Source of the DNA: Tubulanus polymorphus
Taxonomy: Eukaryota > Nemertea > Palaeonemertea > Tubulaniformes > Tubulanidae
Length of the DNA stretch: 64,000 bases
NCBI RefSeq assembly: GCF_964204645.1
Contig: NC_134031.1
Coordinates: 16,241,307 to 16,305,306 of the forward strand
Direction of reading: 5' to 3'
Shown: positions 27,401-52,300 of the stretch, one piece after another
How the letters are laid out: each line of letters begins with the position of its first letter
Numbering within the stretch: position 1 is the stretch's first letter
Made by a program: the position numbers and the translations under genes
Notes under the pieces: model-generated
Database searches by the model: none
What the model was told of the DNA's origin: nothing
What the model saw: the letters and a program-made list of their open reading frames with translations, nothing else

Positions 27401-30400
27401 TCACAATTATTCATTTATTTCTACGGAAAACTGATCGGGTCCTCTCACGCCATGTAAATTGAAGCTATATTCTGTAGACCGTTTGGGGCCTGACACGCCA
27501 TATAGAAGGCAAATCGCGATTTTTCTAGCAGTATTTGTTTTTTTTCTTAGACTTTATGATTATGAACAATGTATAACTAATTGAAACTAAAGATATGATT
27601 AGTGACAATTAATTGCTTCCATAGAAAACTGATCGCGTACTCTCACGCCATATGGCGGCAGAACACTTTGGGGCCTGACACGCCATGTAGACGACAGCGT
27701 GGTTTTAGGAGCTTTTTGTAACAGTATTTGCTTTTTTTTTCTAAGACTAAATAATTGACAAATCATATAGAAGGATTAATCTTTGAACATTTAAGACAAT
27801 TAGTGACAATTATTCATTTGTTTGTACGGAAAATCGTTCGGGTCTTCTCACGCCATGTCTCAATTGAAGCTATTCTGCAGACCGTTTGGGGCCTGACACG
27901 CCATATTGGCTGCAGAACATTTGGGGCCTGACACGCCATGTAGAAGACAGCGTGATTCGAGGAGCTTTTTGAAACAATATTTGCCTTTTTTCTAAGTCTA
28001 AATGATTGACGAACTGATAAATCTTTGAATATTTATGATAATTAGTGACAATTATTCATTGGTTTGTAGGAAAACTGATCGGGTCCTCTCACGCCATGTC
28101 TCAATTGAAGTTATTCTGCAGACCGTTTGGGGCCTGACACGCCATATTGACTGCAGACTGTTTGGGGCTTGACACGCCATGTAGAAGACAGCGTGATTTT
28201 AAGAGCTTTTTGAAACAATATTTGCCTTTTTTCTAAGTCTAAACGATTAACAAACCATGTAGAATGATAAATCTTTGAATATTTATGATAATTAGTGACA
28301 ATTATTCATTTGTTTGTACGGAAAATCGATCGGGTCCTCTCACGCCATGTCTCAATTGAAGTTATTCTGCAGACCGTTTGGGGCTTGACACACCATGTAG
28401 AAGACAGCGTGATTTTAGGAGCTGTTTGAAACAATATTTGCCTTTTTTCTAAGTCTAAATGATTGACAAACCATGTAGAATGATAAATCTTTGAATATTT
28501 ATGATAATTAGTGACAATTATTCATTTATTTGTAGGAAAACTGATCGGGTCCTCTCACGCCATGTTTCAATTGAAGCTATTCTGCAGACCATTTGGGGCC
28601 TGACACGCCATATTGGCTGCAGAATTCGGGGCTTGACACGCCATGTAGAAGGCTTAGCGATTTTAGGAGGCTTAGCGATTTTAGGAGCCATATGACTGCA
28701 GATCACACTAGATTTGAGCCTGGCTCACCATACATGTTTTTCTAACATTATCCATGTTCTTCTAAGACTAATTGATCAACAAATCATGTGAAATAGATGA
28801 ATGATTCATTGAAATGTAAGATAGTTAATTAAAATCTTTATTCTGTAAAACTCATTCAGTAGATATATATGTAATGTTTTTGTATTTTTCATATGCTGGC
28901 GAAATATATGATTGTTTAAATTGTGTTTCAAAATGTGTGTACACTGCATTAGATTAACAAACAACGATCAATTTCTATTCTGTAAAACTCATTTTAGTGT
29001 AAATGCGATCTAATATGTAGTTCTTATTATGTATATATAATACGTTGTAAATCATCTAAGACAAATTAATATCCAACCGAATATTTCAACTTCGGAAGAA
29101 AAACCCGCGAGACGTAGTCGACGTTTCATCTACTGCATAGGATTTGATTTTCATTTTACGTTCACCACATGGCGTGTCAGGCCCCAATATGGCGTGACAA
29201 GCCTCGGGGCTTGTGACGCCATATGCAGCAGGTCTTAAGATTGCCCTAGATGATATATTGATAACATTGTTTTTTTTTTCACAATAAAGAGGGGAACAAA
29301 AATCAAGTATCAAAAAGAATTTAGAAGAATTCTTCAAAATATATAAGAACACGGAAGAGGTCCAGATAAAATTTGAAAATGTACTTGTCCCGGGCAATCG
29401 GACAAGTGCTTAGATCGGACCCCGGTATATTCAGAATCTAAAAGATAACAATATTTCGGTCTCTCACTTGAGACTGGAATATCTTCGAATTCCATACATT
29501 TTCTCTTTAACTTTTTAAACAGTGGATTTTTATATATAGGGCAGATCATAGTCGAAAGTAGAATGGAGAAAATTTGAGTGGGGAATTCCAACGGAGGTTA
29601 TCAGCTGTTCGAAAGGCCGCCAGATACGCTATTTTCTACATATGAGAGTTCGACTGCTCTACGCGCATCTAATTATCCATACTGAGCGAGTTTTCAACGA
29701 AATACGAACCAAAAATATTATCTCAAGCATTCCTGCCCCCCGCGAAGAATTACATATGCATAATTATCTTTTTCCCGGTGGCGATTCTAGGAACAAACCG
29801 AAACGCTCTCGGGGTAAAAAATTCATATAATCCGTTCCCTCGATGCAAAAGCGGTGGTATATAGTGCACCGATTAACTCAGGGATGATAAAAACTATACG
29901 CACGGTCGGTCGGCCTCGCATTTATTCAAATATACTGATGAAATATGGCGGCATAAAAATGATCTGAAAAGCAGTCGTACTGGAATATTTGAATTGCGAC
30001 ACTTATTCTTACTGTTATGGTCTTATTTCAACGTACTGCTAATCCAATGAATTTTCACGAGAACAATATGATATTAGGTCATCGAAATTCACTTGAAAAG
30101 CAAAAGCAAATAATGAAATATTTTATCGTACTACTGAAAATAAAATAATAATAATAATAGGCAATTTATAGACCGCGCTACATAACTCAGTGCGGTTTAA
30201 AATAAGATTTAGCTATAAAACACATTTAAACTTCTAGTGAAAAAACTAGTAAAATTTGGCCCAACTCGGCGACGCAATATTGAACCAAGTTGAAGAATCC
30301 GTCATTTTAGCCGAAAGTCGCACGCGAAAAATACTAAATACGTTTTCAGCAAATTAACATCCAGGGTTGTTAATTTTTCCGAAACGTTTTAGACAGCGCA

Positions 30401-33005: not shown

Positions 33006-36000
33006 ATGGCAAGATTCCTATCAAAATGCTGCTACAGAAGTCTGTCATCGAAAGTTGGACCCGGATTAACGAAATTACCCGTTCCCGGAGATTATCGCAA
33101 TCCTTTGAAAATATTGAAAGGGGATATTTTAGGTCAGAACTCAATCAGAATCGTGCAAAAGCAATATCTTCGAGACAAATTCAAATCGAAATTTATTCAC
33201 TACATTATGATAATGAAAAAATTTCACGGTCTTAATCTGTTTGATAGTGGTCGTGTTGGTGTACGTAACTTTTTCCCCTGAAACTTAAACGTTAAATATT
33301 GAAGAAAATTTCTGATTATCTCTGATTTGTAGGCAGGGAATCGAAGGTGATTGTGCCGCGAGAGTCGGATGTGATAATCATCGGCGGTGGACTCATCGGT
33401 TCTTCAGTGGCGTACTGGTTAAAACAGCGAAACCCTAAAGGTTTTAGCTGTACTGTTATCGAAAAGGACTTGAGCGTAAGACGTTTTATTTTTCAACAAG
33501 AATTCCTTTTACGCAAATACGCACATGAATAGCTTATAGCGGTAATTTTCTTGCTCTTCAATTTCAAGTATTCAAAAGCTGCGTCTGTACAATCAATGGG
33601 TTATTTGAGTACTCACTTCATGCATCCGCAATACATGCGTCTAGCCATGTACTGCCGAGAATTCCTGGAAGATATTAACGACAAGCTATCCGTGTTAGGT
33701 ACACGTTGAAATTAATCGATCAGTCACTCAATTGTTTTGACTCAAATCCTGAAATGATTCTTTTCTGTGTTGCAGATGAGAAGCCTCCTGATATAGAATT
33801 TACCCCGATGAGCCATTTGACATTGGCCACATCTAGTGGGCTTGAGCTACTAACTGACATGTACGCCGTTCAGAAGTATGTATCTTTGCTGGCTTTTTCT
33901 TGATAAGCGACTCTGCAAAAACCTGCGAGTTATTCGAAATAGTGGAGACTATTTCCCGTCTTAATGAATATCGTTGAGAGAAACTCACCAATACCAATTT
34001 AAACAACTGTTGTTGTTTTTTTTTTCTTACGTTTCATCTTCAGAGTTAATTTGAAAATGATCACGATTGATAGAACACTATATTCGTGTTGATGCGATGT
34101 AGAGAGAATCCCACAATTATAACGAAAAATTCCGAAAATGTAACTTCGAGATAGAAGTTTATTTCAACGTTTCGACTATATCCTAATAGTCATCTTCAGG
34201 AATAATGAAATTTGAAAATATTTGAAAATGAAATTGATATTGTGGGTTTTTATTGAGTAATCTTTGTAAAATTTCCTGAAAACTACTTGTTTGTTCCTGA
34301 AAAGAACTGAAGCTAAAAGTTGCTTACAGAAACATTTCAAAATCATGAAAAACGCCATGCACATAGCTCGCAGAGAAAATATTACACATGATATATTGTC
34401 TATCGCTAATGGTGAGGGCTCTGCTGTGCAAAAACAGAAGATTACTAGCAGTGCCTTGTGCAATTTTGAAAAGTCGGTTTTGTTGTTTAAGTTCTGTGAT
34501 AATTAATTAATATGGATGGAAATGTTTCAATTTGATAGAGAAGCAGGAGTTGATGTAAACTTGTTGTCATCGGAACAGATCAAATCTCAGTTCCCTTGGA
34601 TGAATACGGATGATTTAGAATGCGGATTACTCGGTAAAAGAATACTTGATCGCTATTCGTATTCGAATCTTTAACTTTCGATTTCAAAAACTGAGTTAAT
34701 ATCGATTTGATAGGTCTACGCAACGAAGGATTGTTCAATCCCGTTGCATTACTGGCGGCGTTACGAAATAAAGCCATTTCGTTGGGCGTGAAATACGTCG
34801 AAGGAGAAGTTATCGGTATGGAGTTAGAAAATAAAGCGACGGCATACGCGACTGAAGGGGTAATTGAAGAGCCATTCATTCAGTATATAAATGTAAGTTT
34901 TTACTGGAAATGTTTGAACCGAAACTTCTCTCTGCTATTCGGTAATCTAAATGTATTGAATGTTTTCCCTATCGACAGGTTTTGAAGGATAAATTCATTC
35001 ACCCGATCAGAACGTTGTTTTTAGTGAATGCCGCTGGAGCTAATGCGGCGCGAGTTGCAGAATACGCGAAAATCGGAGTGAAATCCGGAACCCGCGCTGA
35101 TCTTCGAATACCTCTTCCTATATCGGAGAGGTAGCTTTAATTTATTGGAATGAATTTGATTATCTTAGATTATCATCTGAACTACAGTTGTTTGTAAATA
35201 ACCTTGTAAATTTTGTTACGCAGCAGTGTTTCACAAATACATACTGTATGCAAAATGTATAACAAATTAAGATGGTCCTAGCTTGTGTACCACATAATTT
35301 TCGATCATTTTGCGTTCGTTAATATTTCAGGAAACTGAGTTTGTTCCTTATACACTGTCCCAATGGTCCAACATTGGACTTGCCGATAATATCAGATCCT
35401 GTATCTGGAATACACATCAGTAGACGAGGATTAGGAGGAGACTATATCTGTCACAGTCATATTTTAGAAGCGGTAAGTTCTGGAGCCGGTTCCTCAAGTC
35501 GAGAAGAAAATTCTGTTTTCTCGAAATCCATTTCATGCGTCATTTGTTACCAAATATCCCATGGCTATTTTGTTTGATTATATCTCTTATTACAATTTAA
35601 AGGAAGAAGTAAATGCCAATACAACAGATGAAATAAATGAATCTTTTTATCACGAGAAGTTATTACCGGCATTGATTCATCGTATTCCTGCATTCAAAGA
35701 GTCGGAGGTTTGTACAAATTTTCAGTTTGTTAAAAGCATTACAACAAATTGCTTGCCGAGAGCTTTAAAGAATTTATGGAATTCTCAAATTTTCAGTTGA
35801 AAGGCGGATGGTGCTCTCGGTATGATTACAATTACGAGGATGAACATTTGATTATCGGAAATCATCACCACCATAAAAATATGTTGTTCGCCTCCGGATC
35901 TGGTATTCACGCGCCTCTGTTCGCACCTGGTATCGGTCGTGCTATCATGGAAAATGTAATCGACGAAGGTTACCGGAGCGTGCAGTTGGACGAGTTTTCA

Positions 36001-36051
36001 TTTACTCGATTTCTTATTGATAGAAATATTCCGTATCTTCGAGTTTCGTGA
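33006..36051 (+). CDS. Diverged FOXRED1 paralogue (FAD-dependent oxidoreductase)
   Basis: A DAO-type flavin oxidoreductase related to the complex I assembly factor FOXRED1. Exons: 33006-33132, 33333-33475, 33569-33698, 33776-33875, 34539-34633, 34714-34892, 34979-35130, 35331-35472, 35603-35707, 35797-36051; 475 residues, in frame. MARFLSKCCYRSLSSK is basic and Ser-rich, fitting a mitochondrial presequence. The FAD-binding GGGLIG (60-65) is intact. Against the canonical copy at 49-54 kb, GGIRQQF has become GYLSTHF (101-107) and the SGHG motif has become GIHA (the His at 429 is kept). Exon number and all phases match the canonical copy; lengths of exons 3, 4, 5, 9 and 10 are identical. The frame is fully open, so it is probably functional, but its substrate is unknown. 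A longer variant of exon 1 (open to 33281) is possible; the donor at 33132 is preferred because it matches the paralogue. Confidence 0.92.
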
Positions 36052-37784: not shown

Positions 37785-40700
37785 ATGTCGCACGACTCAT
37801 TACCTTCCACTTTAACAGGGCAGATATCCCTGGGTAGTGGTTACTTATGGCGACAAACTTCGATTATGAAAATATGGGAACGAATTTTACTTCATCTGAC
37901 GGTGAGAGGTGCGACTGGTGAAACATACTGTCTCTCTGATAAAGATGACAATTTCAAAGTTGAGGTAGATATCAGGAAATCAAATATCAGAGTATCACAT
38001 AAGAATTTTGATACAAATTACCTATGTATGTATCTGGGTCCCTAAGACTCCTCGATTCCATAAAAACTCCTTTCAAATGGAAAACAAGACTTTACAGGTA
38101 TATACTTGAAACTTCTTCGATTTCAGCAAAATACTAGCCTTTAAAACTTGTAACATATCCATGAAAGTTATATATTGGCACACTCCCATCAGTAACCTAT
38201 ATCTACTAGGTCATATTATGTAGTACAGCTTCTTTTTTACTTTCTCTTATGCTGCAACCGCCATTTTAATGACATGTAGACACAAATATATCAGTTAATA
38301 TCAAGACAGTGTTTTCTTGTGTATATCATAGTCTAGAGGAAACTATTAGTTTGTACTTGTACGGTAAACTATCCCTAAATCGTTACAGTTGGGACCAGGA
38401 TTTGTTTTTACCCAATTAGGCGGTTACTGATTAAGAAACCGAGATTGGTTAGTGTGTTAGATAACAAATTTGCTTACTAAACCTCTGAATTAACGGTTTA
38501 CTGAGATAAACAATGCCGATTTAGGAGAAGTCTACAGCAAATGGGATATGAAAGTGATGCAAACCCTTCCTTGAAATTTTCTCATTTAAAACTATTTGAA
38601 AACTCCTTATCTCCAGGAATGACCGATCAGTAGGGACCCTGTGTATGTATGTATGTATGTATGTATGTATGTATGGGTATTGGTTTGCCTGCTCAGTCAT
38701 TGATAGCGGATCCATTATCATTTTCAAATGCCATAAAAACAGTGTAAACTTATCAGCTAGTTTGATACAGTAGACATTATAACCGCGCTATCTTTCTTTT
38801 ATTGCTTTTTACTGGTAGATTTCCGAAAATTAATATTGTCAAATTTTGATTGTTTTTCTCCTTCAAGTTTTATCGCGCCGAAGTGTTTGTGGTGATGTCG
38901 AAGAAAAAGGCCAAAGACAATCTGACGTTTCTCGTGAAATTCGAACGCCGCCAGAAAAAATCCATGGAATGGAAATTCAGAGCCGCTAACATCCAAGAGT
39001 TAAGAGAGTGGCTAATAAGATTTGGCGTCAGGGAACGTGGACTGTACTCGAACGGAGATCCGACTGTAGCTGTTAGTATAACATCCACCTGCTTTTCTTA
39101 ACGGGTACCAGCAAAGCTACTGCGGCAAGTGAAATTCCACCCGAATCCACCAGGTTTCAGTCAAGACGTCAATCCTGTATTAGTTTTACTTTGTAATTGA
39201 GTACGACAGCCACAAACCAAGCTGTATTTGTTCTTCAACTGAATCAAAATCTAGCAATGATTTCTCAAATGATATGGATGATGTACGAAAAATGTGCTAT
39301 TTAATGCACTCTTATTATGAGTAATCTGAATATTATATAGATGCTTGATTTTCCTAATTTTTGGATCGGGATCAATTGGGGAAAACTTGAGATCAAAGTT
39401 GATGATAATGAACAAATTTTGATCGAGTATATCTCTTCTGATAGTTAAGTGGCGCGATCTGTGGGAGTAGCTGGGTTCGCTGGTACTGCCGGAGTAGCTG
39501 AGTATACTGGTACTCCTTTCCTTTAATCACTAAATGTATGTGTGTTATTTTTCATATTTGGTAATCAGCCTGTCGAGAGCTGGATCGGCAAATGGGACGT
39601 CATCCATCCAGACATGATCACCTCACAGTTACAGAATGCTGAAACGGAAGCTATTATCAGTAGACATACGCAAAGACAAGAACTGCCACCTAGTGATGAA
39701 TTACCGACGTATGAACAAGCTATCGGATGGATGCCGTGGGTTGTGGAAGCGACTACGGTATGTCTGTTGATGGATGGAGTATTTATGATTCGATGAAGGA
39801 ATGAACTGCCCGGGGCCCTTCACTCTTTAATGCATTCCTAAAGAAATGGAGAAAAAGTATCCACTTCACTGGGGTAGAAAACATTACCGCATATAATCTA
39901 GGCCCTTTTTTCGTTTGTCGAAAAGAATTGTATCATCAAAAGCATTGTCATGAAAAGCGCGGTCTGCAAATTTTTTGGATCTGGGAAGAGGATGTCCTGT
40001 TATCTTACTTAAGAAGAAGTGAAGGCCCCGGGAAAAATTGCTTTCTTCTTTCACCACGTTGATAACAATACTGAATGTAGTACGATGAATTCTTATGCGT
40101 ATTTATTTAGCAAAGACCTGAAACTGGGCTGTCATTGAGACCATTACCGGAATTCGTTCAAGTAAGACGACAGTTCGACGATAGTTTTCTACCTCCGATG
40201 GCAGCTGCCGTTAAGTGGCCAGTCAGCATCGGTATCGGCGAAGAAATCGGTCTTCCGACGGATGTGCAACAAATCTGGTGTTCGGATACTAATCGGTACA
40301 TGTACATGAATCACAGTAGTAGAGAAGTATTCTGGGAGGACCCGCGCCCTCCGAAGTCTCCGGTTCCGGTCGTCAGTTTGAAAGTGAGTTTTTCGAGCTA
40401 GTTGTAAGATAAAAACCGACTACATACGAATAAAGATTTGAAATTAAAATTATGGTCGAGAGTAGAATTTTAAAAATGACGCATAATGTTTTGGACTCTC
40501 TAAAGACCACTGCCAAGTAGTCTCTACAGAGAGTTCGAAACATTGTGTCCATAAATTTTCTATTTTGATTCTTAAGATTAAAAGAAATGATTTTGCAAAT
40601 TGTTCTAAATAGAGGGTTTTAATCTTATTATTGATTCTCCATATCTGATTGCGGCTATTCTACCTTTAATTGAGTGAATTCCATCTAATTTGAGTGTTAT

Positions 40701-43700
40701 TTTTCAGCTTTCTTTCACATACGTTATTTTAATTAAGATTTTCGATGATTATGATCACTATTTACTTTAAGCAAATACATGTTGGTGACAACCGGAAACT
40801 GCGCATTAAAGTATCACCTTTTGCCACTACTACCCTGGTTGATCTACAGAATATTGTCATAGAAGGAAAAATCAAGGTATCTAACAGGGGCGTACAGCAA
40901 GGGGGTTTATTCAAACCACCCAAATCCGAAGAAGGTTTTGAGGGTTTGACGATGTAGATCGGGGACACCCCTGTCTAGGCCTACTGTGCGTTACTTAACA
41001 AACACTTCATTACACACAGTACACAAGGCATTAACGTGCTGTTTATGTTTTTGAAAAGCCTCACGGAGTTGAGATTAAGGCAGATGGTATAACTGGTGCC
41101 CACGGTAGAGAAGGTCAACGTGGGATTTGCGGTTATCGTGGTGAGGACGGACGAGATGGTGAGTAGATATCCTTATTAGGATGAGTACCCGTATTGTGCA
41201 TTTGTTTCGATGTTAAAGTTTTTTCTGCATTGTAGGAATTTCTAAGGGAAGTCACGGATCTGCCGGCCATAAAGGCGGTCCAGGGGGTCCTGGTGAAAGG
41301 GGCGCGTGTGGTCTAGTCGGTACAAATGCTAGTGATTTGGATATATCTATCGATGGCGACGCATCTGCATTAGCAGTTCATGGCACAGTTGATGTTGTCG
41401 CATGTCTTGGCGGATTGAAAAATGAACATGTGCTCTATCTGGATGCTCGAGGTGGAGATGGAGGCAGAGGTGGAGATGGTGGAACAGGTACTCAGATTTT
41501 AATTAATAAAATAAATATCAGCAATTTTTCCAGTGACAACAGTACTAAGTTATTAGTTTTTTCTAAGTTATTAGGTTTTATTGCTGATCTACCCTCTTGA
41601 AACTGTTTATGATTATTTTTTAATTACATTCATGAATCAGTGCCAAGGTGTTTGTTAACATCTTTAAGATTGTTTTATTCGGAATATGCCGAAGAAACCA
41701 GATGAGATTATAACCTCTTTGTAACTTTAAGAGGTGTTTATTTGATAACAGGAGGTACTGGTGGAAGTGGAGGTCGTGGAGGTGATGGCGCGAAGGGTCA
41801 AAGAGGTCACAATGGTTATTCAACTGGTGCTAGAGGTGGTAAAGGAGGTACCGGAGGTGATGGAGGTCCTGGTGGAGATGGAGGAGATGGTGGTCGCGGT
41901 GGAGATGGAGGTAATGGAGCTTGGTCTGGTGATGGCGGGGATGTCAGTGTTACTGCTTATGATCCATTGCTATTTATGTTATGTGAGGTCAGTCTTTCTA
42001 TAATTCTGTGTCGATAAACCTGATTCCGATTTTCGATATGATTTACACGTTTTTCAAATTACAGGTGGATGCATGTCCCGGAATTCCTGGAAGACATGGT
42101 GACGGAGGTCACGGGGGTGCTGGTGGTTTGGGTAGTCCAGGAGGTATTGGTGGACGAGGTGGTCGTGGTGGTAGTGGTGGATCAGGCGGCGTCAACGGCT
42201 CGTCTGGTAGTTCTGGTTCGAGAGGAGACCCTGGCCTCAATGGTAGGTTCATAGATACATCTGTCTACATTAGTCGTAGGTCATTTTCTATTTCACCATA
42301 TTGTTTGGCTTTGTTTTGATAACTGCTGGATAATTACTGCTTTGTTTTAGGTCGGAATGGACATAGTGGGTGTCCTGGATTAGCTGGGAGGGATGGTATA
42401 GATGGAAAGTCTGGAATGTGTGGTAGTATCATTTGGAAACTGATGGATCCTGCATCCAAAACTATTGTCTTAGAGACTGGAACTCGGTATAACTTGCTTA
42501 CTCAAACGTACACTGTAAGTGTAGCATATCTAATGATATTGAAAAGAATGAATGCACAACACATTTTAGACTGAAAGTTTGAATCAGAATTGAAATGTGA
42601 ATAAAAAGTTTATTGCCAGTTAATTGCAATATTTCAATACTTTATTGAGTAAAAGGCCATGAAATAATATGTTAAGTTTCCTTCTAAGAGATCATAAATA
42701 CGTAATAAATGAATGATCCCTAAGTATGAGTGTGATTTGAATCTAACTGTCATTTAGGTGAGTTCAGAGATCGATGATGGAATATTTGAACCGAATGAGA
42801 GAATATTTGTGTCCGATGTTTTAGTGATGAATATCGGTGGAATGTTTGCACCGGCCGGAGCACAAGTTCATTTCCCGTCTACGAACACCGTCAATTTCCA
42901 TCCCATCGTTCATACATTGCCGAGGGTAAATATAGAATTCCTGTCTAGCAGATGTTATTTGGAAAATACGTATCTGAAATCGAATGGAAATAATTCGAAG
43001 GAATTGTTGAAAAAAAATGTATTTTTGATAAACATAATATGATCGCAAAGTAATTATATGTATAACCAGAAAATAATACTGGTATGATGACAATACCTTT
43101 ATGTATATTGAAAATAAGAAGCCTGAAGAAAGTCTTGGAAGTACGAACTATGCGTTTTCCTGAGGTTCGGTACAATCAAGCATGCCTAGCCCATGAATGC
43201 ACAGCCTTTTAAAGGTGCCTCACTACCAGATACTGACGATCCTAGACGGATAAATAACATCCAATTCACAGGGCTCTAAACAAAATAATTTTTTAATGTA
43301 GATGGAAATAAATGAGGAGTGGATGGTACCGACTAGATATATCGGTCGTATCCGTGACATTTCGTCTCCCAATTGTCCGGGTCCGTACATTGGAGAAGCA
43401 ACTGTCGAATCAAGAGTTCACGTAATGAACAGACCATTCTACGCAGTAAGTTTGATGATCTTAGGAAGAAACAACCAAAATTCAATCATCAATAGTAGTT
43501 AATGATTTGCTAACTTTAATGCTTATTTATAGGGTTTTAATAAAGTAACTTTAAAAGTGCAGTATCCTATAAAAATAGAGGGACTGAAAGTGCCTAGTCA
43601 GATGGGCAGAGGTGAAGAGGCAAACGTCACAGTTATAGTAAGTTTCACTTTTGACATGCACTTACCCTTTCAAATTTCTGTTTCAACTCATCGTTCTAAT

Positions 43701-46700
43701 TTCGTAGTTGAGAAATATATCTACGATGCGTTATGGAGAAGGTTCAGATAGCGGTGGATTCATTGAGGTCAAGGTAAATCTAAAATGCTTTCAAATTTAA
43801 AGAAAGTTTCGATCCGAAATTTCACAGAGCGTCTGCCTTTATTCAGCTTCGTTTAGATCGACGATTGTTACCAGTTCCGAGGGCAGATATGATGCAAAAT
43901 AGACTGTTACCTTACTCCATGACCTTTGATCCGGCCCAGCGGGACAGCGTTTTGATAAAAGTAAGTGAAATGGTTTAGCATTGGACTTCATGATAAACTA
44001 TTTCCAATTTTTGATGTAAGCCTACTTATCATTGTAGATTTTGAATATTGATGCCAATTCAACGCTGGAAATTACGATACCCGTCTATGTCGAAGGAAAG
44101 TCTGAACTTTTTGAAAGGATGCTTTTACAGTCGGACCTGTTTCTGGTAAGCTATTCGCTATGGATCTCGTGAACATCTATACCGTGAGAAGGCGCCAAAT
44201 CGAAATTAGCAGCAAGTCAACCAAAACACAACGCAATACTCTTCATATATTTCAAGTAACATTAAAGCACAGGTTGTCTTAGTATGAACTAGTTATTCGG
44301 GTTTTATCAGGAGCCAATTTCACAAACTAGTGACCCTAAGTCTACGATTCCTACTGGCGGTGTTTTTGTTACTTGGTTTTCAAGATTCCCCACAGGAAAA
44401 TATCACAAGAAGTGAAATCCTGTGATATTAAATCAACTTTTCAACTGACAGCTGGTCATTTAACAATAAACGTACACAATGGAAGAATCCCAGTTTTTGG
44501 TTCGACTCCATTTTCATAGCCTTTCAATATTTGTTACTTGGTTTTCAAGATTCCCCACAGGAAAATATCACAAGAAGTGAAATCCTGTGATATTAAATCA
44601 ACTTTTCAACTGACAGCTGGTCATTTAACAATAAACGTACACAATGGAAGAATCCCAGTTTTTGGTTCGACTCCATTTTCATAGCCTTTCAATATTTCAT
44701 CCTTGAGCAAACCTAAGCCTTAACCCCCAAAGATTAATTTCAATTATAGTGAATGAATGATAATTAATCTAAAAGCTTGGATAACACATTTTCTGCGACA
44801 CCCGGTAGTAAAATCCTATAAAATTTATATGTATTCAATTATTTGCTTCGAATTAATTTTCTTATTTCACAGCGAGGAAAACTGATCGAATATCAACAGG
44901 AATTCATTCGCGTGTGTCCGTATTACGTGAAACGCGAGCCGCCCGGCGACGTGCTGTTCATCACCGGGCCGCAGATTTCGCGACATCGATTCATCATGTG
45001 GCAAACTTTATTCGAATATCTAAACGTAACGCTCGATTTCTGGGATACGGAACGTTACGGAGGCGTTTCTTGGAATTCTCGTCATCAACGTCATGATGTA
45101 CGTATACCATACTGCGCGTCGATCGAACTGTAAACCTTTTCTAACTCGGACCGACATAATTGGTCTGAGGTTAGCAAAGTTGAGGATAGGAAAATATGTT
45201 AGTCAGAAAAATCATTTCCAAGTTGGTCATGTCCGATTGAGGTGAGGTTTACTGTATCAGAACACCAGGGGCCGGTTTCACAGTTGTTGTTTAAATTTGA
45301 CTAAAGAATTTAAATCAGTTCATTTTCTATATTCTAACCCTCGAGGAGCCGGATCCCTTAGTTCTTATTTTGTCAGTTTGTAGAAATCCCTTGGTGTATC
45401 TATTTTACATTTAGCCTCTTGAGGAACACCTAATGTCTATTTCAACTTTGTTTGTGAACGTCAGGTTGCCTATCTCAGTTAGTTTTAGTAGTACATACCT
45501 GATATAGGTCTTGATAAGACCAAAATGGATGGGTAGTTGATTTTTTAAAAGGATTTTACTCTGTATTCAACGATTACCAAAAATCCTCCTTTGAATGTTG
45601 AAATGGACATTAGTAATGAAACCTATATACCGCTGACCGCATTAGTTATCATATAGCGATGGTATGAGTCGGCGCGCTCTTATCAAATCTTTGCGAATCG
45701 ATGTTAAAATCTTTGAATTCTTCGTTTGTTGCTTCAGGTGAGCTGGGTTAATCGGTATCGCGGCCGGCTTATCGTCTACCCACTAGCCAACATATACTCA
45801 TTCAACCCCGACGACATCGCGTCTCATTTTTGCGACGAAGAATTTCTCAGTCAAGATTCCGGAATGTTGCTGCTGAGTAAGGATTTCTCCAAAAGCAAAT
45901 ACATGTCTTTGGCTATGATGACGCATTTGGCGCGGTCGGTTACACCGGTCAATGTCGATGAGTTATACAGGGGATCCCATCTATGTCACCCGAAAAGTTG
46001 TTGTGTCCCTGGAAAACCAGCACAATCGTAAGTTTCACTCTGTATTCTAGCGTCACTCTAGTTTTTTCTATTGAGTGTACCCGCTACGTTGTTAAGCTAC
46101 TTATACACTAGTAGCGAAAGCTCGTACTTTTAAAAGAATCAAGTTTATCTTCAAAGAAATTTTTGTCTTAACGTTTGCTGACTCGCAAATTTTTTCACTA
46201 TAAAGTATCCCATTCAAAATAAGATTAACAAAATTTAAGAATCGAATAGCCAAGGGTGAGTTTTATAGACTGATATTATCTTACCCTGGGGGCTAACTCA
46301 ATTAATTTGCAACCGAGTTAACCCCTGTGTTAAAGCTAATACTGGTCTATAAAACCGACCCCAGGAAGTTAGGTGGAATCAGTCCACTCAGAACATGCAT
46401 CCTGTTTATTCCCAATTCCTGTGTCTGACAGCAATCCATATTTAAAGGTTCCGTACCTAGACAACATTCTCGCTACATAACATTATTTAGCTGAACAGAG
46501 CAAAATAAATTTTCTCGCAATCACATTGCAGGAAAGCTAAAAAGATTTTCAAATTCGTCGAGAAAATTCACCCCGAGTATGGGCACGTGATATTCAACCA
46601 GACCATCGATTATAAAAAGTTACGCGGATTGTTGTATAGTTACGGTCATCTAGATCTACGACGCCTGCCTGTAGGTCGTTCGTCACGGATGTTGCTCGCT

Positions 46701-47982
46701 TACGATCCAAATCTCATGAAATTAGGTGAGGATGACGCTTGCCACACACCAGCAGCCACCGAAGTTCCTCTCGCTAGTTTTTTCGGACAGGTAAAACTGT
46801 AGAATACTGCCGTATTAGACCTCATGATGAACTAATCCAGGGTCCCTACAGATCGATCATTCTTGAATACATATATAAGGATTTTAAAGGAGAAAATTTC
46901 AAGGAAATGTCTGCATCACTTTCATATCCCAATTACTTATTTCTCAGTAAACCATGAATTCAGTGGTTTTGTAAGCAAATTTCTATTACTGGGTAATAGC
47001 CCATTTCTCAAAATTGAAGGAGTTTTAAAAGCATTTTTGGCATTTTGCTCGAATTAAAGGTGTTTCAAACTTATTGAAAAGCATTTTCTGTTAAGAGGAG
47101 TTTTTAAGGAATCAAGGAGTCGTATAGGGACCATATTACATTTATAATGACTATTTGAATCTACGTATTGTAGGTGATGCTTATGGTAATCCAAGGACTT
47201 CCATTGTCGAAGAAAATAGAATTGTTGAATCCTGAACTGCTGAGCACTCCTCGACCGAAATTCGTGACACCGAAAGGCGATGAATTTACATTAAGACAGC
47301 TCATAGCGGTGTCTCTAGAAGAGCATTTACTTTATGAAGTGATGGCTAAACTAAAGGTTGAATAGATATTAGTTGTATGATATATACCAAAGCTATATTC
47401 ACTACGATAGGCAGATAAAACAAACGGCTAGTTAGTTACCTAATCTTTGGTGATAAGCTATTAAAATTGGATGGGCTTAATGAAAATTATCCGATCATGT
47501 AACAAACGGCGTGCTTGAATTACTGCAGTGAATGTATTTTTCAGGCTTCCGATTTGGTGCAACGACTCATCGAAGAGGTGACGGCGCAACCAGATTATTT
47601 CAGCGGTGAAGATGTTGGTCCGTATATATATCTAGCGTTGATGTCATTGATGAAAGCGGCCGACGATTGTCCTTCGAGCTACCGATGTCAAATAAAAGAT
47701 CGTTTCGAACAGATTTACAACATACTGAAACAGGTATGCGATGCAATCGTTCGCGAGTGGATGCGCTTGAATCATTGAAATTTCATAACGTATTTAATGT
47801 TTCTATTACAGAACGACGGCGCGCATAAAGAGTACAAGAATCAAGCGAAGAAGATGCTGTCGGATAAAGCGCGCATCACGTTTCAAATATTGTTGAATCA
47901 AAAGAATCTGATTCATTGCCATCGTTTGATGTTCAAAGACAAAATGTACGACCTCAAACATGCAGCTGATGCAGAGGTTTAA
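37785..47982 (+). CDS. Uncharacterised PH-WW-glycine-repeat protein
   Basis: Family not recognised. Exons: 37785-37901, 38868-39071, 39569-39757, 40111-40383, 40772-40876, 41059-41158, 41236-41487, 41752-41987, 42065-42242, 42351-42514, 42758-42925, 43302-43445, 43533-43637, 43708-43773, 43847-43960, 44038-44145, 44873-45097, 45738-46027, 46532-46790, 47174-47356, 47545-47733, 47812-47982; they join in frame to 1279 residues. Residues 18-105 look like a PH domain (GYLWRQ, then LREWLIRF). LPTY at 152-155 is a WW ligand. 218-251 is WW-like (YMNHSSREVFWEDP; first Trp missing). About 305-575 is Gly-X-Y, mostly GGX and poor in Pro, broken by two non-glycine inserts. After that come beta-sandwich-like stretches (DDGIFEPNERI, then MNIGG) and a region near 866 starting GDVLFITGPQ. 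No signal peptide, so probably cytosolic. The exon 1 donor and exon 20 donor (gttgaa) are the least certain. An untranslated exon upstream is implied by the acceptor at 37778. Confidence 0.85.
38390..38642. mobile_element. MITE with AGGGTCCC/GTAGGGACC ends, copy 2 (inverted)
   Basis: It runs opposite to copy 1: TTGGGACCAGGATTTGTTT at the left, GATCAGTAGGGACCCTG at the right, with GGGATATGAAAGTGATGCA as the inverse of the shared inner text. It lies in the first intron of the PH-WW gene. Confidence 0.65.
38643..38675. repeat. (GTAT)n microsatellite
   Basis: Eight tandem GTAT units directly beyond the right end of the MITE. Confidence 0.95.
44366..44695 (+). repeat. Exact 165-bp tandem duplication
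   Basis: The 165 bases at 44366-44530 are repeated without any difference I can see at 44531-44695, in the intron between exons at 44038-44145 and 44873-45097. Both units start TTGTTACTTGGTTTTCAAG. Recent duplication or an assembly artefact. Confidence 0.9.
45128..45257. mobile_element. Pogo/Tigger-like MITE
   Basis: Left end CTGTAAACCTTTTCTAACTC, right end CAATCGGACATGACC-like arms in inverse order (GTCCGATTGAGGTGAGGTTT then ACTGT). AACTCGGACC and GGTCATGTCCGA pair. Type inferred from the ACTGTAAACC end. Confidence 0.5.
46257..46364. mobile_element. Foldback MITE, TATAGACTGGTATTA family
   Basis: AGTTTTATAGACTGATATTA pairs with TAATACTGGTCTATAAAACC; inner arms ACCCTGGGGG and CCCCTGTG. It lies in the PH-WW gene intron between 46027 and 46532. 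Confidence 0.7.
46839..47133. mobile_element. MITE with AGGGTCCC/GTATAGGGACC ends, copy 3
   Basis: Left end AGGGTCCCTACAGATCGATC, right end GGAGTCGTATAGGGACCAT. The stretch TCTGCATCACTTTCATATCC is identical to that of copy 1. In the intron between 46790 and 47174. Confidence 0.65.
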
Positions 47983-49325: not shown

Positions 49326-52300
49326 TTACACGATATTATTTTCGAATATATATTCTTTATTGACCAAACGGTTAAAACTCATTCTAGACAAATCGATTGT
49401 CTTATAACAACCGTCGACGATTAATTCCGATATTGCCCGACCAGCAGCCGGGGCGTGTTGCAATCCGTGACCACTAGAACCATTCACAAAATAGAAATTC
49501 TCATAATACGGATGACTACCAATTATCAGATTCTCATCCGCGGTATTGACTTCATAATAGCCACTCCATGCGCTACGCAACTATAAATTGAATATTTAAT
49601 GGTTAATACTTGAGTTTTAGAAACAGTGAGGGTAGTATAAATCAGGGTTCTTACCGATCAGGGAATGCAAAAATCCATGATATTTTCCTGATTTCCCCTG
49701 ACCCTCGACCAAAAATGGCCTGATTGAATTATAAGACATCCTCACAGCAGGGTTCCCACGGGTTTTGAAAAGTCTTGGAAAGTTTTGGAAAATGGGAATT
49801 TTTTTCCGGGCCTTGGAAAAGCTATGGAAATTTTGTTTTTCTCTATGGCTATGGAAAAGGTATGGAAAATCAGAAAATGACATCAAAATAAAAATTTCCT
49901 TCAATTTCAGATTATAGGCTATGGGCCTGCGCCAATTGTAACCACTAAGAATTTTGGTAACAAAAAGGGAGTTGTCACTTCCCTGTGACACAGTGGGGAC
50001 TGTTTCTTGTCAAGATGTTCCTTTTTGTGCCACTTGTCACCAGTAAGAACGACTAGACATCAAAAATTAAAGTTTCCAGACTTTTCTCTGATTTCTAAGA
50101 AAAGTGTCGGAATTCCCTGAACCTCCCTGCAGGAAAAATAAGTCCAGAATTCCATGATATCCCTTATCCGTAAGAACCCTGATATTATCTTGCTGTATTT
50201 ATTGCGTTACCTTTAATGTTTCCATTGCCGGTATTCGGTGTGCCATTACAGGCCAGATTTCATCTTGGAAGAAATCATAATCGACTTCCAGGTTGTCGGT
50301 GGGTGGTTCCTGTTCCTGTTGGAAACAACAATTTTTAGATCAAGCACTTCCGGTATACCGATTATGTCCAATCAGACATGTGAAATCCTGCTTAAATTTT
50401 TTTTAGGCATAAGCGTATAGCTATAGTTTACTCCCAGATGATTACCGTGAATGTCATTTTGTTCGATGAATGTCAATTCGACTGAAATTATGCTGATTAA
50501 ATTGCTTAGATTTTTCCGAAGACTTACCTCGGTTGGAGATTTTCCGCAAATGAAATTGTCTCCGGATTCTCTGCGCATATAAACTCCGGTGGGATCAATG
50601 AGGAATGGTAAATTCGAATTCGGTGGTATCTTCGGTGCATGGATTACATATACATATCTCTTCCTGTAAAACAGAAATTGAATATAGAACTAAATATCCA
50701 CTGATGAAATCATTCTAACAGTATCTATCATTAGATGAAAAATACAGTCAAATCATAATCTAGATAAGTTATCACTATTACTTAAGTCCTCACTACTTTT
50801 GGGTCCCACTTTATTTCTAAGTTCCAATTCAATTTACTAAGTTTAAGTCGTCATTTGGATAAGTCGTCAACAAATTATGATCATCCCCGCTGTGATGACT
50901 TAAGCGAATTTGACTGTATTACCATATTGAGTACGAGGTACACAAATAAAACACACCTAAAAATTGTTTCTCTCAATTCTGACAAACATGTAGAAACATA
51001 CAAAACACAGATCACATTTCTTTCTCCCAACCTTTGGAATGCTCTACGCAAAAACATTTGTCACAAACCCGATTTAGAAAATTAAAAAGATTCCTAATAA
51101 TATACCAGTTTACTGGATTACTTTTAATATTCTTTTAATATTGAATCAGCGAAATTGGCGCTATATAAGCATCATTACATCATCATCATATCTGAAGCCT
51201 AGGATACCTCGGTTCTACTGGTAGAGCTACACTGAGCAGCCCATCCCCACCTCCAATACCGACCAGCTTGGATACTTCTCCAGCAGACGGACCAGCCGCG
51301 TTAACGATGTGACGGAATTTAATTGGCTGCATATCATTGGAATCGTTACCCAGTAATCTGACCTGCAATTCGATTTTGAAAATCTTGAAAACAATTTTCT
51401 CTTCATCCATATGTCCACCACCATTTGAGACTTACGTGGGCATGGGTTAGCTGTTTCTTTTCTTCGGTTTGATTGTGAGCTTCGGTTCTGAACTGGAATC
51501 CGGTCACGTCGCCTTTCACATATTGAACGCCCATAGATTTGTTCTTTTGACGAAAAGCTACCAAGAACAGCCACGGATCGAACCAACCTTCTCGTTCCAT
51601 CGCTTCGTAAATACAAATTGTTAGACGAGAAGATACACAGTATCCGTGTATGATGATGACAAGAGAAATCCCACAATAACGAAGCCAAGATTGAAAAATT
51701 CTATATCAGATTGATGATATTTGAGGAGCAACGTTTCGGCTAACAACTGTTAGTACGCCTGATGATGGCTAACAGTTGTTTGCCGAAACGTCGCTCCTCA
51801 AATATAATCATTCTGATATAGAATTTTTCAATCTTGGCTTCGTTATTGTGGGATTTCTCTCGTCATACAAATCGTACACATCATAAAACAATCTTATCAT
51901 TTACAAATCGTACACATCATAAAACAATCTTATCATTTACAAATCGTACACATCATAAAAACAATCTTATCATTTCAAATTCATTTTTAAATAATCTACA
52001 GTAGAAAACCTCTCTTACATATAGTTCCACATTCGATATCATCTATATTTAACCATGGCCACCTGTGTCGCAAGTCCTTTTTCGTCAGAAACATTACTTT
52101 AGCACCTACTTCCCTGTTAAAGTTATATGAATTCTTAGATTAGTAGAATCATAAGCTGCAAATGTACAGTATGCTGCATTTGAGATTAAGATTGCATAGC
52201 TAGGGGTCCATTGACACCATGCCCTCATGGAAGTGGTCTTGGAAACTGCCAATTTCGATATGCATCTCCTGCCAAGTACAGAAACCAATGACAGGCCAAG

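Follow-up and report, generated by a model that had tools for sequence, protein, structure and literature searches.

The window analysed here is a 64,000-nucleotide stretch of contig NC_134031.1 of the nemertean Tubulanus polymorphus, and on its forward strand it carries, as a predicted model of 22 exons (positions 37785-47982), a real gene. The exons were assembled manually, using open reading frames and splice sites. All introns are of the GT-AG type with consistent phases, internal stops are absent, and the coding length is 1300 codons plus the stop. An earlier note, made from the letters alone, had likewise joined 22 exons in one frame, and its figure of 1279 residues differs from ours presumably through the placement of exon boundaries. 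Its PH-like N terminus, LPTY motif, degenerate WW domain, glycine-rich tract (put at about 270 residues), beta-sandwich-like stretches and C-terminal part of about 400 residues were all recovered at the places where it had put them. The features are as follows, with residue (aa) positions and the basis of each assignment.

37785..39071, + strand: exons 1-2, start codon and PH-like domain, aa 1-128 (Pfam PH match at aa 18-110)
39569..39757, + strand: exon 3, linker with the LPTY motif (DELPTYEQA, about aa 171; motif read in the translation)
40111..40383, + strand: exon 4, degenerate WW domain (QQIWCSDTNRYMYMNHSSREVFWEDPRPP), about aa 238-272, first Trp lost (PF00397; match to 1tk7)
40772..42514, + strand: exons 5-10, lead-in strand and Gly-rich tract, aa ~321-612, with beta-like inserts (NASDLDISID..., GGDVSVTAYDPLLFML) (composition; bacteria-only profile)
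42758..43637, + strand: exons 11-13, DUF7932 (PF25560, aa 624-742), a predicted Ig-like beta-sandwich 1, and the start of beta-sandwich 2 (QYPIKIEG) (Pfam; bacterial profile)
43708..44145, + strand: exons 14-16, remainder of beta-sandwich 2 (LRNIS...YG) (bacterial profile)
44873..46790, + strand: exons 17-19, alpha/beta domain (GDVLFITGPQISRHRFIMWQTL...LDFWDTERYGG; HPEYGHVIF) (bacterial profile; hhalign)
45969..46027, + strand: 3' end of exon 18, doubtful, as frame 0 joins cleanly and frame 1 is more coding-like (codon score)
47174..47982, + strand: exons 20-22, helical C terminus with a conserved Glu (SLEEHLLYE) (family conservation; hhalign)
47980-47982, + strand: stop codon, at the end of exon 22

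The doubt over exon 18 concerns its last 60 nt, for which the codon score is +3.2 bits in the +1 frame versus -1.5 bits in the joined frame; the +1 frame of this tail reads KVVVSLENQHN and DPIYVTRKVVVSLENQHN. About 20 residues at the end of the exon, or the splicing or an indel there, are uncertain. It looks as though a single-base indel, a short intron or use of an alternative acceptor at 46537 played a part here, and homology gave no separation among the three readings.

Several repeats lie within and near the gene. Intron 16 contains a perfect two-copy tandem duplication of 165 bp (44365-44697, 100% identity), which either arose very recently or is an artefact of the assembly. A dispersed repeat that reads RVPTDRSFL...EKISRK.LHHFHIP is present in introns 1 and 19 in opposite orientations (38521-38787, - strand; 46836-47057, + strand), and positions 27644-28611 consist of tandem repeats whose units measure about 216-241 bp and are 87-93% alike. 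On each side, the gene is flanked by the final exon of an FAD-dependent oxidoreductase-like gene (Pfam DAO) that points inward (35734-36051, + strand; 49326-49580, - strand). These two genes look like paralogues, and the one at 35734-36051 is a sub-threshold match.

Over the whole rebuilt protein, DUF7932 (PF25560) was the sole Pfam family to score above its cut-off (67 bits versus a cut-off of 27; E 2.7e-18; aa 624-742, profile positions 5-130 of 130), and it was also matched in a scan of fragments (E 7.9e-20). As the core belongs to DUF7932, with full-length relatives in bacteria and a giant virus, the earlier suggestion of a new, unrecognised family is unsupported; the profile search that had been named as a check led to this family, which has no known function and was named in none of 5.39 million open papers searched. 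Agreement with full-length relatives extends beyond the DUF. A profile built from 28 bacterial proteins, with the window sequence left out, matched the protein collinearly over aa 345-954 (260 bits). Because glycine composition contributes part of this score, the beta region was scored separately, and the bacterial profile of that region alone, free of the Gly bias, gave 109 bits over aa 614-881. The start of the alpha/beta part was matched at aa 874-951 (35 bits, E 7.3e-9), and hhalign of aa 874-1299 against the bacterial profile returned a probability of 98.3%. Together, the profile and hhalign matches place the architecture outside the DUF in line with that of full-length relatives, the Gly part being compositionally biased. 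At the level of sequence, these comparisons establish homology of residues ~320-1300 with complete bacterial proteins, the order of the parts being the same in both. The predicted order of this core is Gly tract, DUF7932 beta-sandwich, second beta-sandwich, alpha/beta domain and helical end, and in Endozoicomonas, Myxococcota and Bdellovibrionota the core is the entire protein. Invariant or near-invariant residues of 23 bacterial members, compared by eye, recur in the animal protein, including the E and P of DGIFEPxE, the N and P of N.GGM..P, YP, N-I-S and the Glu of the C-terminal helix (SLEEHLLYE).

In the 268 Mb, 77-contig genome, the DUF7932 profile found only this locus, in a search whose exon-wise matches could have missed a copy. 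Among bacteria, a DNA pattern search was based on DGI[FY]EPGE, a stretch typical of the family; it gave 44 matches, and the true relatives among them came from two Endozoicomonas, two Bdellovibrionales and two Myxococcota-type records. Sampled genomes with PF25560 above its cut-off numbered 2 of 293 in the Endozoicomonas order, 9 of 282 in the phylum Myxococcota and 23 of 290 in the phylum Bdellovibrionota, and there were none among 14 control genomes. Signal-peptide-like starts were seen by eye in several Bdellovibrionota members, L010, L011, L093-L096, L102, L103 and others, and Endozoicomonas and Myxococcota members have no such starts; this one family thus apparently occupies two cellular locations. 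Also by eye, a frame with a RING-finger-like stretch and Sel1-like repeats (L019:3747-4931, + strand) lies beside an Endozoicomonas DUF7932 gene and resembles a eukaryote-like effector.

The giant-virus relative is the DUF7932 protein A0A3G4ZNF8 of Terrestrivirus (1137 aa), which matches the whole bacterial model in BFVD, a set of predicted viral structures (Foldseek E 3.7e-42). A search of viral contigs with a relative found no encoder, the DGI[FY]EPGE pattern matched only unrelated proteins in viral contigs, and tblastn of the C-terminal 708 aa gave no match among phage and plasmid records. Searches of the PDB by phmmer and by profiles returned no sequence relative of the core, and the matches of the Gly profile there were low-complexity linkers and collagens. 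In a tree of the beta region, the branch of the animal sequence was very long (2.97) and none of its neighbours was supported, and therefore neither origin nor transfer can be read from this tree. Recent transfer from an Endozoicomonas symbiont was considered as well and is unsupported, given that branch and an intron-rich gene.

Of the 292 residues of the Gly tract (aa 321-612), 103 are Gly and few are Pro, and a second Gly is found in 54 of the 94 counted triplets. The earlier proposal that such repeats might form a polyglycine-II bundle is backed by AlphaFold2 models of one bacterial protein, the Endozoicomonas relative L029, which is about 23% identical to the animal protein and was modelled from a shallow alignment (6 sequences; mean pLDDT 63-69). 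In the full model, the Gly tract reached a pLDDT of about 75-94 outside loops, and the alpha/beta part was poor, with low confidence and no fold match identified. Modelled alone, the Gly tract superposed on the snow-flea antifreeze protein 2PNE over 81 of 81 residues (Z 12.2, rmsd 1.2 Å); 3BOG and 7JJV were the next fold matches, and unrelated entries began at Z 4.7. Gly-rich polyproline-II bundles are known from snow-flea antifreeze protein, Obg, acetophenone carboxylase and phage tips (PMC8409303), and Obg was absent from the fold-match lists of the bacterial relative's model, although a likeness to it may still exist. The model suggests that the Gly tract folds as a polyglycine-II bundle like that of snow-flea antifreeze protein and not as a collagen triple helix. 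The beta region of the same model resembles the tandem Ig-like domains of transglutaminases, integrins, protein 4.2 and complement proteins, an arrangement so common that nothing on function follows from it. Packing of the Gly bundle beside the two Ig-like sandwiches, as a rigid platform, is supported by the bacterial relative's model.

Alternatively, the Gly tract could be a disordered or condensate-forming low-complexity region and not a folded bundle, a reading that we consider possible but doubtful. The tract is indeed of low complexity, only two of five models of the Gly-tract fragment scored well, and there is a risk that AlphaFold2 carries the known antifreeze fold over to any sequence of GGX repeats. 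However, many of the Gly residues do not vary among diverse bacteria, the inserts that separate them are conserved, aligned relatives interrupt the repeats with the same strand-like segments, and pLDDT in the full model was 80-94 over most of the tract.

By sequence, it is the N terminus, with its PH-like domain, LPTYEQA motif and worn WW domain, that sets this gene apart from the relatives examined. Neither PH nor WW was detected in any of 23 complete bacterial relatives scanned, while DUF7932 was detected in all 23, and bacterial members with a complete N terminus start at or near the Gly tract. In the fragment scan, PH (PF00169) scored 19.8 bits against a cut-off of 25.1 (E 0.0011; profile positions 4-98 of 105, aa 18-110), and WW (PF00397) matched the exon 4 region below its Pfam cut-off (E 0.023; profile positions 7-31 of 31). 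Reversed and shuffled copies of these N-terminal fragments gave no PH or WW match. Compared with the PDB by phmmer, the WW region matched the WW domain of Su(dx) (1tk7, E 0.0066) and, more weakly, YAP and Nedd4, and a weak PH match was obtained at aa 17-61. Of the two signature tryptophans of WW domains, the second alone is present (FWEDP). In the usual YAP numbering, the groove Tyr and Thr look changed, and the His and the second Trp stay.

The LPTY of exon 3 conforms to the PPxY/LPxY motif of Nedd4-family PY-motif ligands. Binding of LPTY to the protein's own WW domain, as the earlier note had envisaged, is unlikely, because the WW domain lacks its first Trp and is not matched before profile position 7. 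A likelier ligand would be the WW domain of a partner, such as a Nedd4-family ligase. As ligases of this family bind both PPxY and LPxY (PMC8509885), LPTYEQA may bring about ubiquitin ligation or sorting.

It is unlikely that exons 1-4 form a short PH-LPxY-WW gene of their own, next to a separate DUF7932 gene beginning at or near exon 5, even though the bacterial relatives start at the Gly tract and have no N-terminal modules. If left unspliced, exon 4 runs into a stop within a few codons (frame end ...KVSFSS), the frame of exon 5 has upstream ATG codons (MIMITIYFKQ), and an AATAAA at 40429-40434 makes a split within intron 4 possible. However, a single AATAAA in a short AT-rich intron is a frequent chance event, and the junctions of exons 4, 5 and 6 are in phase 0, have good donors and acceptors, and span introns that measure only 388 and 182 nt.

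Translated as a single gene from the ATG at 37785, the protein has no visible signal peptide, in agreement with the earlier reading, and is probably intracellular. A secreted or extracellular matrix collagen-like protein whose true signal-peptide first exon was missed is improbable: it would fit the Gly-X-Y repeats with their Pfam collagen score, itself below the cut-off (21.9 versus 27.2 bits), an in-frame acceptor-like TTTCAG directly before the ATG and the signal-peptide-like starts of several Bdellovibrionota relatives (by eye), but Pro is scarce and GG-containing triplets dominate, the PH/LPxY/WW set suits the cytosol, a polyglycine-II bundle is what the relatives' model shows, and Endozoicomonas and Myxococcota relatives have no obvious signal peptide.

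The proposal of a cytosolic, membrane-recruited scaffold is plausible, because the protein has no signal peptide and carries a PH-like domain, LPxY and WW remnants; the self-binding of LPTY that formed part of it is unlikely. We give an even chance to the animal DUF7932 member being a membrane-localised, ligase-regulated cytosolic adaptor that combines an ancient core with eukaryotic modules. In such an adaptor, the protein would sit in the cytosol, the predicted PH-like domain would recruit it to a membrane, and the putative docking motif LPTYEQA would engage a WW protein, for which a ubiquitin ligase of the Nedd4 family is the likeliest candidate. The worn WW domain may be structural or weakly binding. 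The core would position the C-terminal alpha/beta-helical part as an effector or partner-binding end, and the ancient core would have become an adaptor by gain of the eukaryotic modules. Similarly balanced is the case for the polyglycine-II bundle being a conserved core common to bacteria, a giant virus and animals, fused here to PH/LPxY/WW as a membrane adaptor.

Among known systems, the DUF7932 proteins of Endozoicomonas, Myxococcota, Bdellovibrionota and Terrestrivirus resemble the animal protein in the order and content of the whole core. However, identity is about 23%, PH, LPxY and WW occur in none of the bacterial members examined, and several Bdellovibrionota members look secreted, unlike the animal protein. 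The antifreeze proteins of snow fleas and springtails (2PNE, 3BOG, 7JJV) share GGX-rich, Pro-poor repeats, and the bacterial relative's model superposes on the whole of the 81-residue protein; there the bundle is an entire secreted protein, whereas here it would be one domain of a large protein, and ice binding is not implied. In the N-terminal domain of the GTPase Obg and in acetophenone carboxylase, a Gly-rich PPII bundle likewise forms one domain of a cytosolic protein (PMC8409303), but neither was recovered by sequence or fold search, and the animal protein has no GTPase or carboxylase part. PH/WW adaptors and LPxY-bearing Nedd4 substrates are similar in the PH-like match, LPTYEQA and the C-terminal two thirds of the WW domain. 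Here, however, PH and WW are sub-threshold, WW is without its first Trp, and the remainder is unlike known adaptors.

If this reading is correct, DUF7932, a family without known function, would gain a domain plan consisting of a polyglycine-II bundle, two beta-sandwiches, an alpha/beta domain and a helical end. The rare bundle fold would extend beyond antifreeze, Obg, carboxylase and phage-tip proteins, so that a fold of few known proteins would be placed in a new and ancient context. The PH-like domain and LPTY motif of the animal member would point to where its partners could be sought.
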